In this document: positions 11,656-17,275 of the stretch, in pieces | Position numbering within the stretch: the stretch's first letter is position 1 | Layout of the letters: each line of letters starts with the position of its first letter | Assembly: GCF_900048895.1 (NCBI RefSeq) | Contig: NZ_LT160640.1 | Coordinates: 372,001 to 436,000 of the forward strand | Length of the DNA: 64,000 nucleotides | Direction of reading: 5' to 3' | Origin: Neglectibacter timonensis | GTDB taxonomy: Bacteria; Bacillota; Clostridia; Oscillospirales; Acutalibacteraceae | The notes under the pieces: generated by a model | What the model saw: only the letters and a program-made list of their open reading frames with translations | Databases searched by the model: none | Told to the model about the DNA's origin: nothing | Position numbers and translations under genes: made by a program

Positions 11656-11868
11656 GTTTGCATAAGAGTGCCCGCACGACCGTAATGTGCTTCTCAATAA
11701 CCTGCTACATAGTAAGCAGGTGGGTGCCCTCCCTCATACTTCTCGCTCCCTTCATCCAACCACGGTCAAAGCCGGGCCGGGAGGTCTGCAGTCTGCAGGA
11801 GGAGTGAGGCTCCCGATTATTTGAGTGTAGGGTTATTTGTGCACAGTCCGCGCATCGCGCAGGCAAAA
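11625..11868 (-). ncRNA. ssrS: Candidate 6S-like RNA (SsrS)
   Basis: The 11661-11873 stretch has no ORF but folds as a long rod on the minus strand. GCCTGCGC at the 5' end (plus 11857-11864) pairs with GTGCGGGC near the 3' end (plus 11670-11677). A central part contains an ACCTGC-loop-GCAGGT hairpin, as in the 3' side of the 6S central bubble, and a strong terminator follows. 6S RNA mimics an open promoter and binds RNA polymerase. The shape and position fit; I could not test a covariance model. It lies just downstream of a DUF1292 gene and may be processed from read-through or have its own promoter. Confidence 0.5.
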
Positions 11869-11873
11869 ATTAC

Positions 11874-12173
11874 TTATTCCTCTGGCTCATCGTAATAAGC
11901 TTCGTTGAAACGGTTCTCAAAAATTTCGGCAAGCTTATCGAGAAGAGCATCATCCTCCACCTCTTGAAGCTGTTCCTCGCCGTCCTCTTCAATCACTTCA
12001 AAAATATAATAGGTTTCCGCATCAGAAGCCACTTCATCTGCGTCCTGCTGCGTGGGAACCAGGGCCATAAAATGGCCGTCATCATTTTCCAGCTCATCTA
12101 TGATCTCAAATTCATGCTCCTGTCCTTCGTCATCAACAAGGGTCAGAAGGTCGGCCTCATATTCATTATCCAT
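11874..12173 (-). CDS. DUF1292 domain protein (YrzB-like)
   Basis: This 99-residue, very acidic protein contains DLLTLVDDEGQEHEFEIIDE and a YYIFEVIEEDGEE strand, the DUF1292 pattern. Its function is unknown; in Bacilli and Clostridia it lies in the alaS-ruvX neighbourhood. The frame is open upstream to 12422, but ATG 12173 has AAGGGG upstream and matches the family N-terminus, and the promoter at 12223-12251 lies inside the longer frame, which rules the extension out. Confidence 0.9.
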   Translation of the reverse strand: MDNEYEADLLTLVDDEGQEHEFEIIDELENDDGHFMALVPTQQDADEVASDAETYYIFEVIEEDGEEQLQEVEDDALLDKLAEIFENRFNEAYYDEPEE

Positions 12174-12222
12174 CACTGCAACCCCTTTCTGAAGACACTG
12201 AGCCGTGTCCTCTTGCAAGGAT

Positions 12223-12251
12223 ATTGTACCTAAAATATGTGAGGAAGTCAA
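12223..12251 (-). promoter_or_regulatory. Promoter for the DUF1292 gene
   Basis: On the minus strand TTGACT (plus 12246-12251) and TACAAT (plus 12223-12228) are spaced by 17 bases. Confidence 0.8.
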
Positions 12252-12487: not shown

Positions 12488-12516
12488 TTGACAAACAATG
12501 GTCTGGCCGCTATAAT
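12488..12516 (+). promoter_or_regulatory. Perfect consensus promoter driving the large RNA candidate
   Basis: TTGACA at 12488-12493 and TATAAT at 12511-12516 match consensus fully with a 17-base spacer. No coding start follows; transcription would begin near 12523. The 230 bases upstream, back to the DUF1292 promoter, hold nothing I recognise. Confidence 0.85.
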
Positions 12517-12522
12517 AAAGAC

Positions 12523-13405
12523 GAAGATAAGAGATGGAAGAAATCTTCAAAGGGTTCCCGCTAAAACCGGAAGTAAGGAAGAAGAGCCGTGGCAGAATTG
12601 AAAGACATTTTTGACGAGAAAGAAGATGTCTGAATGTGGAAGGTTCTTTTTGACAGAAAACGGTGAGGTGCTTTTTTGGAAGCTGCAGAAAGGGTGCTTT
12701 CAGTAAGTCAAAACGGAAGATTTTGATTGAATGGTCAATGTTTTTGGGTTTGTCTGATGAAAGGGTCCGGAGAGCAGAAACAGTAGTTGCTGGTAGTGAC
12801 GAAAGCTTTTCTGGCGGCTTGCAGCTGTGGAGAATGTAAGAGCGGGAAACAAAAAATTAGGTGTAGAAAGGCGGGTGAGTCCAATGGGCCAAGAACAACC
12901 TCAGCACTTTGCATCTGTGGGCTCACAAGCTCACAGATAAAAGGATAGTTTTTTGAGTATCTAAAAGGAGGACGTAGTGCCAACAAACAGATACAAAGAA
13001 AATTCGGTACGAGACTGTAGTAAAACCGCAATTTCTTGTAGCTTTTAAAAAGCTGGTTTCTATTGAACGAATAGAAAAGTGAAAGCGGAATATGACATAC
13101 GGTAATAAGTATCGGAAAGATAGGTAAATTCCAATGTACTAAGTTGTTTCGTCTTGATTTTTTCTCCCTTCTGAAAGAAAAAACAGCATGAACTATGTTG
13201 TTACAAACAGATTGGGAACGAATATAGGGCTATGACTTTTATCGGTTATGTCAAGAAGAGGCAAGGAAGTGTCAAAGTATAAAACCCTTACAAAATAATT
13301 CGTTGACATAGATTTTGCAATTCCTGATGATCGGTTCGAGTTGGAAACCATACCTATAAAAATTGGGGACTTCTGAAAGTGATTTCAGAAGTCCTTTTCT
13401 TTTTT
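12523..13405 (+). ncRNA. Candidate large structured noncoding RNA, about 0.88 kb, class unknown
   Basis: Between a consensus promoter and a strong terminator there is no ORF of credible length or codon pattern on either strand. The plus strand is purine-rich and full of hairpins. Examples are a 9-bp stem at 12604-12630, TCAAAA/TTTTGA at 12708-12726, an 11-bp stem at 12913-12938 and a three-way junction at 13026-13088 with two arms. There are also consecutive 8-bp stems at 13158-13183 and 13182-13202. I do not recognise tmRNA, RNase P, SRP, group I or II intron motifs. Known large Firmicutes RNAs (OLE, GOLLD, ROOL) are alternatives I cannot test. An HD-domain gene follows with its own promoter. 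Confidence 0.6.
13368..13405 (+). terminator. Strong intrinsic terminator ending the large RNA
   Basis: GGACTTCTGAAA and TTTCAGAAGTCC pair around a short GTGA loop and are followed by TTTTCTTTTTT. Confidence 0.9.
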
Positions 13406-13510: not shown

Positions 13511-13539
13511 TTGTTTTCCATATGTTCAAATGATATACT
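13511..13539 (+). promoter_or_regulatory. Promoter for the HD-domain gene
   Basis: TTGTTT at 13511-13516 and TATACT at 13534-13539 with a 17-base spacer. This rules out the longer reading frame starting at 13511. Confidence 0.65.
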
Positions 13540-13594
13540 AAACAAACAGCAGATATCTAGGTTGAGAAACAGTGATTTAGGAGCAGATTCATTT

Positions 13595-14155
13595 ATGAGA
13601 AAAAGCCGGAGGCAGCAGCTTTACAGGATAGACCGTTTCAGGGAATATTATAAAGAACTTTTTTCGCATTCTGGTCTTGGTCAAATCGCGAAATTTACGC
13701 AGCATGGTACAACTTCGCGCTTGCTGCATAGTGTGGCGGTAGCCTATTACAGCTATAGGCTTGCACTGTTTACTCGTCTTCAGTTTCACTTGGATGATTT
13801 AGTGCGGGGGGCATTACTCCATGATTATTTTCTCTACGATGCTGAAGATGGAGATCCTGCGCATAAGGGTCATTGGACCCGGCATCCGTCGATTGCTGCA
13901 GAAAATGCAGGCAGTGAAGTGCAACTGACCAGGATTGAAGAGGACATTATCAGGAAGCATATGTTCCCTTTGACGCTCCAGCCTCCCCGTTACCGGGAGG
14001 GGGTAGTGGTTTCAATGATTGATAAGGCATGCTCCGTGTATGAGTTTTTTAAGCGTCGGGAACCATACGGCCAGATTCGCCGGGAAGTCCTGCGGGAGGA
14101 ACTGGAAGGCAGTCTAAAAGCCTTTTATCTTAAACTGCCGGCAGGGGAGTCTTGA
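13595..14155 (+). CDS. HD-domain phosphohydrolase-like protein
   Basis: The 186-residue protein has His45 in SRLLHSVAVAYYSYR and the HD pair His76-Asp77 in GALLHDYFLYD, then a HWTRHPSIAAENA stretch and HMFPLT, consistent with a metal-binding HD hydrolase. Its size and sequence fit the small stand-alone HD proteins of Clostridia; substrate unknown. ATG 13595 follows AGGAG and lies downstream of a promoter. It is single, ended by a strong terminator, and sits directly after the large RNA candidate. Confidence 0.85.
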   Translation: MRKSRRQQLYRIDRFREYYKELFSHSGLGQIAKFTQHGTTSRLLHSVAVAYYSYRLALFTRLQFHLDDLVRGALLHDYFLYDAEDGDPAHKGHWTRHPSIAAENAGSEVQLTRIEEDIIRKHMFPLTLQPPRYREGVVVSMIDKACSVYEFFKRREPYGQIRREVLREELEGSLKAFYLKLPAGES

Positions 14156-14789: not shown

Positions 14790-15986
14790 ATGGCTCGCAG
14801 AATGAAGGAAGAAGAACGGCAGTTTGAGGATGTCTCCAGTTATTCTTCTTCAAAGGAGTATAAAAAGCGCAGAAAGAACCGTCAGGGAAGGACAGTGCTG
14901 AAAAGTATAGCAGGGTTTTTTTGCGTGCTGTTTATCGCTTTTGGCGGGATGCTGATATATGTGTCTACAGATTTGATAGCTGACTTGACCACCAATACGA
15001 TCACAAAAGACCCGGCAGCACTTGGAATAGATATCTCCAATATTGTTATGGACGACAGCATTAAAAATATTGCTCTATTCGGAGTGGATGCTCGGGACAA
15101 TGAGTTTACAGGTCAGTCAGATGCAATTATGATACTGACAGTGGACAACAAGCACCATAAACTAAAGCTCACTTCTGTACTGCGCGATTCCAAGGTACCG
15201 ATTGAAGGCGTCACATTGAGCGGTCAAGAAATCAACTGGGACACTAAGATCAATGCCGCTTATGCTGAAGGTGGCCCCGAGCTTGCTATCCGTACACTCA
15301 ACCAGAATTTCGGGCTTGACATTACAGATTATGTGACGATCAATTTTGCTAATATGGCCGCAGTCGTAGATGCTTTTGGGGGAACTCAGATTACGATTAC
15401 CACGGAAGAGGCGGAACAGATCAATAGGAACCTCTGGGCGCTGAATGAAGAGGTTAAAGACCAAATGGAAGCGGATCAAGAGGCAGGCACCTATTCTGAA
15501 CATAGTTACCCGCAGATCAAGCATGAGGATTTTTTTCAGGATCCACAGGGCGGAACATATGTCTTGAACGGGAACCAAGCGGTGGCCTATGGACGCATCC
15601 GTTATATTGACAGTGACAATGAAAGGGCTAAGCGCCAACAAAAGGTGCTCAGGGGATTGATTTCCAGGGTGACAGAAATCAAATACAGCGAGTATCCCAA
15701 TCTAATCAAAGAAATGATGCCGTTGTGCGAAACCTCTTTGGATTTGGGAGACATCGTTGGTCTGGCGCCGATTCTAACCAGCAGCTTTACTGTGGAGTCC
15801 ATCAATGTTCCTGATTTGGAATATGAAGCTCCCTGGGAAGGAACTGCGGAAGATGGCGTCTGGTATTACATTTATGATGTGGGAATTGCGGCGGAACGGA
15901 TCAGCAGCTTTATTTATGAGGAGGATTCTCCTTATTGGAGTGAGTACGGCGATACTTCTGTCAGCCGAACATCTAGCGGCAGTTAA
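14790..15986 (+). CDS. LCP family glycopolymer transferase (LytR-CpsA-Psr), copy 1
   Basis: LCP enzymes transfer lipid-linked teichoic acid or capsule polymers to peptidoglycan. The 398-residue protein has a charged N-terminus, one membrane helix near residues 37-60, then the LCP domain with NIALFGVDARD, LTSVLRDSKV (the catalytic-site Arg-Asp) and GRIRYIDSDNERAKRQQ (the second Arg set). A Ser/Thr tail ends the protein. GGAGG lies before the ATG. It is paired with a second LCP gene 81 bases on. Confidence 0.93.
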   Translation: MARRMKEEERQFEDVSSYSSSKEYKKRRKNRQGRTVLKSIAGFFCVLFIAFGGMLIYVSTDLIADLTTNTITKDPAALGIDISNIVMDDSIKNIALFGVDARDNEFTGQSDAIMILTVDNKHHKLKLTSVLRDSKVPIEGVTLSGQEINWDTKINAAYAEGGPELAIRTLNQNFGLDITDYVTINFANMAAVVDAFGGTQITITTEEAEQINRNLWALNEEVKDQMEADQEAGTYSEHSYPQIKHEDFFQDPQGGTYVLNGNQAVAYGRIRYIDSDNERAKRQQKVLRGLISRVTEIKYSEYPNLIKEMMPLCETSLDLGDIVGLAPILTSSFTVESINVPDLEYEAPWEGTAEDGVWYYIYDVGIAAERISSFIYEEDSPYWSEYGDTSVSRTSSGS

Positions 15987-16066: not shown

Positions 16067-17275
16067 ATGAGTCAAAAAGAAAAACGTGCGTCACATGGCA
16101 GGCCGTCCCAGGACCAGGGGCGGCCCAGGCGGGAACCACTGCACGATAATTATTACTATGAGGAACCTCCGCGCAGAGGCCGCGACCCTTCGGGATATGG
16201 AAGGGATTTTGAAGATATTTCCAGTACCTCGTCCAGCAGCAGGCGGCATAGTCCGCCGTCCCAACGGACCGGGAAAAGAAAGAAAAAAGGAAGACGAACC
16301 GGACTGGCGGTGTTTTGTGTTTTTCTGGTATTGGTTGGTTTTGGTGCGTGGTACATATTCGGTTATCTTTTGAACGGCTTGACTATCAAGGGAATTGACA
16401 AGGATAAACTGGGAATTTCGGGAGATGTCCTCTCCGACGGCAGCATTAAAAATATAGCGCTGTTTGGTTTGGATGCCCGCGAAAATACAGATGAGGGCCG
16501 TTCCGATGCGCTGATGATTCTTACGGTGGACAACAAACATAAAAAACTGAAGCTCACCTCCATTCTGCGAGATTCCGAGGTTTCTATTGAAGGATATGGG
16601 CAGGATAAGATTACCCATGCCTATGCGTATGGAGGCGCGGAACTCGCAATCAGGACCATCAATCAGAATTTTCATCTGGATATCGAAGATTATGTAACTG
16701 TCAACTTTATTCAAATGGCAGAGATCGTAGACGCATTCGGCGGCACCCGGGTGAATATCAGTTATGATGAGGCCATGGAGATCAATAAGAACCTGGATAT
16801 GTTGGCACAGGAATCCGCAGACGCCAATATCCAGGAAAGTGATTTTATCTATGACGAGGGGGATGTTCTCCTCAACGGCAATCAAGCCGTAGCCTATGCA
16901 AGGATCCGGTATCTGGATGGAGATGATGTGAGGGCTTCGCGGCAGCAGAATGTGTTGAAGGGATTGATCACCCAATTGAAGCAGCTCAATAAGCTGCAGT
17001 ATCCGGAACTGATCCGTAAGGTGGTGCCTATGTGTGAAACCTCTTTAGATTTTGGGGATATCATGGGGCTTGCTCCCGTCATGCTCAGTGATTTTACCAC
17101 GGAAACCCTTTCCATCCCCAGCGGCGAAGAAGCCCCTGAGGATGGATATACCGATGAGGGCGCTTGGGTCTATGTGTATGATCTTGAGGCAGCCTCTCAG
17201 CATATCAGCCGTTTCCTCTATGAGGAGGATTCCCCATATTATAGACAGCCAGAGGATTCCATTGGAGAAGAATAA
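16067..17275 (+). CDS. LCP family glycopolymer transferase, copy 2
   Basis: This 402-residue paralogue of the preceding gene has a longer, Arg/Ser-rich cytoplasmic tail of about 85 residues, a single membrane helix near 88-112, and the same LCP motifs: NIALFGLDARE, LTSILRDSEV and ARIRYLDGDDVRASRQQ. Tandem LCP copies with differing cytoplasmic tails are common in Clostridia; the two may differ in polymer or regulation. GGGAGG precedes the ATG. Confidence 0.93.
   Translation: MSQKEKRASHGRPSQDQGRPRREPLHDNYYYEEPPRRGRDPSGYGRDFEDISSTSSSSRRHSPPSQRTGKRKKKGRRTGLAVFCVFLVLVGFGAWYIFGYLLNGLTIKGIDKDKLGISGDVLSDGSIKNIALFGLDARENTDEGRSDALMILTVDNKHKKLKLTSILRDSEVSIEGYGQDKITHAYAYGGAELAIRTINQNFHLDIEDYVTVNFIQMAEIVDAFGGTRVNISYDEAMEINKNLDMLAQESADANIQESDFIYDEGDVLLNGNQAVAYARIRYLDGDDVRASRQQNVLKGLITQLKQLNKLQYPELIRKVVPMCETSLDFGDIMGLAPVMLSDFTTETLSIPSGEEAPEDGYTDEGAWVYVYDLEAASQHISRFLYEEDSPYYRQPEDSIGEE

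Follow-up and report, generated by a model that had tools for sequence, protein, structure and literature searches.

6S RNA is a global regulator RNA which mimics a nucleic acid site, the promoter, while sponge RNAs of the CsrB/RsmZ type carry repeated GGA-containing motifs, and RNAIII, SgrS and VcdRP each combine a short ORF and a structured body in one RNA. Two-codon and AUG-stop frames are known mostly as toxic constructs or leader elements. Long bacterial RNAs with extensive structure and no protein product include OLE, ROOL and GOLLD, and GOLLD is reported to bind ribosomes in pull-downs (PMC12286853). Dual-function RNAs are a recognised kind (PMC8672173). In PMC8708949, two-codon ORFs of the axe-txe leader (a Shine-Dalgarno (SD) sequence, then AUG-NNN-stop) act in cis in gene leaders, and minigenes with strong SD sequences trap tRNA as peptidyl-tRNA. 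The candidates described in PMC8040213 span 27-219 base pairs only.

Here we describe the gene of a conserved structured RNA which has its own promoter and terminator and, in module A, a predicted translation-initiation region of great strength, and to which many relatives add initiation-like modules in the form of AUG-NNN-stop, sometimes AUG-stop, and AAA/AAG variants. The gene lies in a 64,000-nucleotide stretch of DNA (the window), from the first letter of which all positions are counted. The RNA class is new in sequence and architecture, and its mechanism is something we can only infer. No published account of the RNA was found, as judged by titles and the openings of abstracts.

Results

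A terminated transcription unit with no gene-like frame

The initial annotation of positions 12488-13405, made from the letters alone, had proposed a large noncoding RNA gene, possibly of a new class, and most of what it described was borne out. The promoter is of sigma-70 type (TTGACA-17-TATAAT, 12488..12516, + strand), agrees with the consensus at 12 of 12 positions and, when 3 kb were scanned, scored highest of 10 promoter-like sites. The strong, clean terminator consists of a 14-bp stem at 13365-13396 followed by T-rich sequence (13365..13405 in all, +). Taking the start from the promoter and the end from the terminator, the transcript would run from 12524 to 13405 (+). About 0.88 kb had been described as free of credible ORFs, and the longest of the six-frame readings within the segment are indeed 98 aa (- strand) and 58 aa (+ strand), none of them gene-like. 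None of the five segment frames tested had a Pfam match at E 0.1, on which ground a decayed protein gene, an alternative named in the annotation, was rejected. The transcribed strand is purine-rich as claimed, at 59.9%, a value as high as which is found in 16 of 1264 window stretches. Folding of the 877-nt strand gave -242 kcal/mol, with a z of -4.75 against 20 dinucleotide shuffles. The 5' end of the RNA is a short stem whose sequence differs among many relatives, as read without a formal count, and a conserved element, GAAAACGGTGAGG (12656..12668, +), recurs by eye in most genus relatives, where it reads GAAAACGG(C/T)G(A/G)GGAG.

Outside the RNA, the divergent conserved neighbour is a DUF1292 gene (11874..12233, -; Pfam PF06949), and just past it lies a 6S RNA gene (11665-11868, -; Rfam RF00013, 57.1 bits), which was also found in five of the eight related loci scanned (L005, L007, L008, L056, L061). 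On the other side an HD-domain frame (13511-14155) follows the terminator. Further downstream there is an adjacent pair of LytR-CpsA-Psr-like genes, the one at 14790-15986 (+) recognised by Pfam and the one at 16067-17275 (+) by likeness; in several relatives, too, the RNA has a pair of such matches in its vicinity.

Distribution, synteny and size

Homologues were sought by blastn, as the annotation had advised; of 99 relatives, 10 have two short conserved blocks, and these 10 belong to the same genus. Within the limits of the fetched stretches, the gene order around the blocks is repeatedly DUF1292(-), RNA(+), HD, GtrA, LytR, and further genus genomes have a like promoter, the conserved blocks and a terminator, with RNA length varying. 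A covariance model of the core, R1, built from 23 sequences, gave matches at E 1e-5 in 22 of 29 genus genomes (records named Acutalibacter or Neglectibacter), and matches were present in 17 of the 20 genus genomes with at least 90% completeness and at most 5% contamination. Among 349 genomes of the family, 85 had R1 matches at E 0.001, many of these being weak, and 13 that are not of the genus had one below 1e-6; 18 loci from these family matches were read, three of which (L091, L092, L096) resemble ordinary coding DNA. A DUF1292 match lies on the same contig at a distance of at most 1 kb in 10 of the 13 extra-genus genomes, the remaining three being one outside the DUF1292 search (G401), one with its place unlisted (G158) and one with DUF1292 on another contig (G208).

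A functional link to the HD-domain gene, which the annotation had suggested, found no support in this comparison. RNA and HD gene are on different contigs in three genomes (G010, G020, G026), where other sequence stands upstream of the HD gene (L045, L050, L053), so the HD gene is not a constant partner and was rejected as such. A 5' leader or riboswitch was likewise rejected, since the terminator stands before the HD frame, and L115 and L118, from two further genera of the family, read as having other genes downstream. The divergent DUF1292 gene is the partner of the RNA that is conserved more widely than the HD gene. In G005, G009, G018, G020 and G027 a second HD-domain paralogue was noticed, which is more distant, at 42-43% identity.

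Regions upstream of DUF1292 from 40 family genomes (39 found by the DUF1292 search, G401 by R1) served as the discovery set, and module A was placed in 29 of them. Nine regions (eight without a recognised promoter, plus L133) were left out of the module counts, which were thus made on 31 RNAs. The shortest transcript in the family, that of L042, measures about 0.43 kb, and the longest, that of L138, 1.9 kb between a promoter at 298 and a terminator at 2196. In a held-out set of 39 more distant family genomes, 28 had a promoter-like site and 11 had module A by the strict pattern; this set is not fully independent of the discovery set, as the two share genera (e.g. L228/L139, L241/L129, L245/L132).

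A pattern scan of named genomes returned 20 stretches, mostly from Acutalibacter, Neglectibacter/Neglecta or relatives, including two from rumen Ruminococcus (L055, L059), which have a different neighbourhood with no DUF1292 match found near the RNA, and one from Nakamurella (L066), probably a chance match. In L055 three SD-AUG modules are seen by eye, namely ORF1, MRS followed by a stop, and an 11-codon frame. Source labels of RNA-bearing records include chicken, rumen and gut MAGs. The pattern AAGGN{0,4}TGAGTCCAATGG was present in 32 of 394 genomes of the order (reversed control 0), in 7 of 391 of a class sample, three of these from the same order (control 1), and in 25 of 87 of f13, a second family of the order (control 0). 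Among 31 order and class loci with the module A pattern (L147-L177), 16 have an ORF of 16-30 codons and the rest have longer frames or 2-12 codons. Twelve of these loci were used for ORF1 lengths and 13 for site pairing (L149 has 9 codons); the others were left out as having starts like those of ordinary genes, having other frame lengths or being already represented. In the f13 loci that were read, a promoter is present together with module A and an ORF1 that shows the same complementarity, and most of them also have a conserved hairpin CCGAUGGGCAUACUGAUGAGUAUGG; modules B and C, described below, were not seen in them. Several f13 loci are divergent to what we take to be an iron alcohol dehydrogenase gene. 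Three genomes of this second family (G1106, G1110, G1113; L218, L219, L220) have two module A pattern matches each, on different contigs, and possibly carry two copies of the RNA.

Module A and ORF1

Module A is the extended SD-type sequence GAAAGGCGGGTGAGTCCA at 12866..12883 (+), for which a hybrid energy of -17.4 kcal/mol with the 16S 3' tail was calculated. The 16S 3' end of this genome reads GGCUGGAUCACCUCCUUUC in three copies, and module A (GAAAGG..GGUGAGUCC) approximates its complement. An energy of -17 kcal/mol was reached by 0.03% of 18,282 background windows, and over 65 module A sites the median was -20.0 kcal/mol; for comparison, among 69 mechanical ORFs of the window, each 200 aa or longer, the best starts had a median of -10.9 and a strongest value of -16.6 kcal/mol.

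Behind this exceptionally strong site an ORF of 18 codons is predicted (ORF1, MGQEQPQHFASVGSQAHR and a stop, 12884..12940, +), a feature absent from the initial annotation. The word noncoding needs qualifying, since the conserved core of the RNA consists of a translation-initiation region and a short ORF. ORF1 has 16-24 codons at all 23 core sites, 16-32 at all 38 selected sites, and 18-22 at nine of the 11 held-out module A sites, the other two having 2 codons. The start is ATG, replaced by TTG in L002 and GTG in L003 (both loci found by blastn) and by GTG in L119. Core alignment A1 includes five loci (L055, L056, L059, L061, L062) found by a pattern which demanded an NTG start, and these are therefore no evidence on start codons.

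Substitutions in ORF1 at codon positions 1/2/3 were 30/39/56 (19 related pairs, p 0.015, pairs not independent), a weak result on which a strongly conserved micropeptide was rejected. An N-terminal pattern, M-(G/D/E)-x-x-E-x-Q-(H/Q), is common to many of the peptides, and the C-terminal half shifts reading frame among relatives because the sequence there follows a hairpin. Given the codon-position signal and these frame shifts, the peptide appears to be constrained at most weakly, while the start, the approximate length and the hairpin are kept in the selected loci.

A hairpin in ORF1 which can pair with module A

The hairpin (12913..12938, +) lies inside ORF1 and carries an anti-SD sequence, GGGCUCAC (12919-12926), which can pair with GUGAGUCC of module A. 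Site and hairpin complements are GUGAG/CUCAC in the genus, GCGAG/CUCGC in L048, L049 and L051 (CUCGU in L052), and elsewhere CCAAUG/CAUUGG or UUGGGC, and CCGAU/AUCGG. When the core hairpin, the pseudoknot and a small stem were taken together, 86.1% of cells were paired, against at most 42% for slid versions, and nine pairs had double changes where shuffles gave 3.6 (none of 500 as high), a statistic which leans partly on a structure read from the same sequences. For the site pairing alone there were two double-change pairs against 1.2, and 123 of 500 shuffles were as high.

Pairing of module A with its own downstream sequence was better than in shuffles (p<=0.05) at 48 of 65 sites and missed that threshold at 17, with a mean of -18.9 against -13.1. 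With swapped partners the mean was -17.5; at 29 family sites the values were -17.2 for the own sequence, -17.3 for those of other groups and -15.6 for swaps within a group. At the held-out sites own-downstream pairing was significant in 4 of 11 cases and failed in 7.

Domain 2

A structured domain of 109 nt, domain 2, occupies 13006..13114 (+) and has an outer stem (GGUAC/GUAUC), inner helices and a central hairpin. RNAalifold analysis of alignment A2 (20 sequences) gave 13 consensus pairs, eight of which have compensatory double changes; the annotation had named covariation as a check on its proposal. In the outer stem, G-C is changed to A-U in six sequences and C-G to U-A in two and in four. 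Single-sequence folds of the domain have a similar shape.

Modules B and C

The window RNA has a second SD-like stretch, AAAAGGAGGA (12963..12972, +), possibly a diverged module B, with the 16-nt stretch from 12957 scoring -12.2 kcal/mol. Module C (13112..13142, +) is a weak SD-like stretch (-9.0 kcal/mol) followed by AUG-UAC-UAA at 13134-13142, a 2-codon ORF which is the sole minimal-ORF site in the window RNA. It is found at the same place in 18 of 20 other genus loci and, by eye, in L008; in L042 and L046, also genus loci, it was not found by eye. The frame is AUG-UAC-stop in the window and in seven relatives (L002-L007, L041), while by eye it reads AUG-UAU-UAG in L008, extends to 3-4 codons in L048, L049, L051, L052, L061 and L062, and is longer in L009, L010, L044 and L056.

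A regular expression for module C (AUG preceded by GG..[UC]CC, module A excluded), written after the discovery set had been viewed, identified 43 AUGs of this type in 21 of the 31 RNAs. ORFs of at most 5 codons followed at 40 of these 43 sites; among the other AUGs the count was 117 of 423 (Fisher p 1.5e-17, for sites that are not independent). Examples are MY, MF, MR, MQ, MT and MW, each followed directly by a stop. A first held-out test which demanded the strict module A was underpowered (3 of 5 vs 29 of 119, p 0.11). With the regular expression unchanged and a region rule set after the held-out regions had been viewed, the 28 promoter-bearing regions gave ORFs of at most 5 codons at 22 of 40 sites against 116 of 429 other AUGs (p 4e-4); of the other sites, 14 had 15-26 codons, like ORF1, and four were of other kinds. 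The opposite strand of the held-out regions had no excess (2 of 7 vs 90 of 402, p 0.66). AUG-stop frames made up 5 of the 40 held-out sites and 25 of the 429 other AUGs. SD-like sites followed by AUG-UAA, a start and a stop, were noted in L230, L237, L246, L247 and L248, which are more distant family members.

Of the 31 RNAs, 19 contain modules B (GG..UGAGUCC-N-AAA/AAG), with 25 distinct sites in all, 16 of which have an in-frame stop within 5 codons. The AGUCCAA stretch is near-constant and is conserved beyond the need of 16S pairing. As read in L138 and L136, certain modules form small hairpins whose loop contains GGA. Repetition of an SD sequence, an AUG and a stop within a few codons, the marks of a minigene array, is thus found across the family, in ORFs that are predicted.

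Comparison with known RNA families

At the gathering score Rfam gave no match for this RNA in the window or in 22 related loci, OLE, ROOL, GOLLD and raiA included; only 6S RNA was found. At a permissive E<=10 the segment had 12 Rfam matches, none of them to OLE, ROOL, GOLLD, raiA, tmRNA or 6S. That the window segment is a member of a conserved structured RNA family without an Rfam match is well supported, and the annotation's proposal of a large RNA gene of a new class stands on homologues, covariation and this absence of Rfam matches, with the qualification of noncoding given above.

Several known kinds of element were considered and rejected. A tmRNA variant is not indicated, as the tmRNA of this genome lies elsewhere (G000:C13:426471-426846, 161.6 bits) and none was found in the segment. 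Phages and plasmids gave no blastn match to the RNA; in an uncontrolled count the short module A pattern occurred in 65 stretches of viral contigs, and on these stretches R1 had five weak matches, none above 18.7 bits, where the window scores 83, results which argue against a phage element carried in the manner of ROOL or GOLLD. A sponge for CsrA was set aside, as PF02599 had no match in this genome (G000, completeness 100) or in three RNA-bearing genomes (G011, G012, G021), while 16 of 40 genomes were positive. For a type I toxin mRNA, SD sequestration is predicted but the ORF1 peptides are mostly hydrophilic by eye.

Discussion

That a stand-alone RNA repeats ribosome sites ahead of useless frames points to engagement of the ribosome, and since conservation of the peptide is weak we infer that such engagement, rather than the peptide, is the function. 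Our tentative preference is for a decoy for ribosomes and initiator tRNA, or for a sensor of translation capacity, a reading which could well prove wrong. When free 30S subunits are plentiful, module A would be open, ORF1 would be translated and its hairpin melted; when they are scarce, the hairpin sequence would close module A. At the minimal ORFs further initiating ribosomes would be captured and let go, and peptidyl-tRNA would be loaded with no useful product, so that the RNA would be a loose translation counterpart of 6S RNA, itself encoded nearby. The more far-reaching proposal, that this is the first natural RNA class built as an array of translation-initiation sites whose frames are minimal or missing, a dedicated decoy or gauge for free ribosomes and initiator tRNA gated by a blocker-containing ORF, we regard as somewhat doubtful. 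Several observations count against a ribosome reading: the weak SD of module C in the window, the f13 loci without visible modules B or C, a 16-30-codon ORF at only 16 of the 31 order and class loci, own-downstream pairing that falls short at 17 of 65 sites and 7 of 11 held-out ones and that at the family sites is no better than with sequences of other groups, and a module C expression and region rule that were chosen with the data in view. In modules B the SD-like sequence is retained but AUG is replaced by AAA/AAG; the motif may therefore have a reader other than the initiating ribosome, and these modules, together with the near-constant AGUCCAA, leave room for a protein sponge or a purely structural role.

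It is rather unlikely, although it deserves serious consideration, that the RNA is a dual-function regulator in which translation of ORF1 switches the fold and the RNA, like RNAIII, SgrS or VcdRP, then base-pairs with other mRNAs, with stability or timing set by the extra modules. A single short ORF behind a strong predicted start site at every selected locus, the long structured body (z -4.75) and the recognised standing of such RNAs (PMC8672173) would fit this, but the codon-position signal and the conservation of the peptide are weak, and the repeated minimal ORFs are left unexplained.

An architectural RNA of the OLE, ROOL or GOLLD sort, forming an RNA or RNP particle in which the SD-like modules are sites for assembly or for binding of ribosomal components, seems improbable. 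Size and covarying structure agree with it, complementarity of loop and site could also act between molecules, and the reported pull-down of ribosomes with GOLLD (PMC12286853) offers a parallel; against this, there is no Rfam match to any of the three, the locus is chromosomal and syntenic without a phage or plasmid match, and length varies about fourfold among members.

Modules B without an AUG, the near-constant AGUCCAA and the hairpins with GGA loops (L138, L136) would also suit a sponge for an RNA-binding protein which reads GGUGAGUCCAA-type motifs, their likeness to SD sequences being incidental. Such a sponge is improbable too, and a little more so, as CsrA, the best-known protein of this kind, is unmatched in this genome and in G011, G012 and G021, and the short in-frame stops are left unexplained. 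That the RNA is in the main a micropeptide mRNA, ORF1 with a long structured 3' region, is very unlikely. The alternative GTG and TTG starts (L002, L003, L119), the shared N-terminal pattern and the third-position excess (p 0.015, from non-independent pairs) speak for it, but the C-terminal half changes frame among relatives, following the hairpin, and within 16-32 codons no domain was recognised. An intergenic relic or decayed gene arisen by chance, which might have been thought of from blastn matches in 10 of 99 relatives only, all in the genus, is refuted by conservation, namely the synteny, the covariation and the modules repeated across the family.

If a ribosome decoy or translation-capacity sensor is the correct reading, some gut Clostridia would regulate translation capacity through an RNA made to look like start sites, much as 6S RNA resembles a promoter, and a direct test could be made of whether RNA buffers or senses free ribosomes. 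Mechanism aside, an undescribed long structured RNA is present in 22 of 29 genomes of an animal and human gut genus and would provide a natural case for the study of two-codon and AUG-stop frames.

Set beside the described systems, the RNA resembles OLE, ROOL and GOLLD in being long and highly structured, and differs from them in having no Rfam match, in its chromosomal location, its synteny with DUF1292 and its very variable length, as well as in its initiation-like modules and the short ORF with a site-complementary hairpin. Repeated GGA-type motifs are shared with CsrB/RsmZ, but here they resemble start sites and the genome has no CsrA match. With RNAIII, SgrS and VcdRP it has in common a short ORF and a structured body; unlike in those RNAs the peptide is poorly conserved, further minimal ORFs are present in many members and there are no known targets. 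The arrangement of an SD sequence and AUG-NNN-stop is that of the minigenes in PMC8708949, but it is repeated within a stand-alone, terminated RNA instead of standing in a gene leader. The segment has no match to 6S RNA, and the likeness to it would be one of site mimicry, with the ribosome rather than RNA polymerase as the proposed partner.
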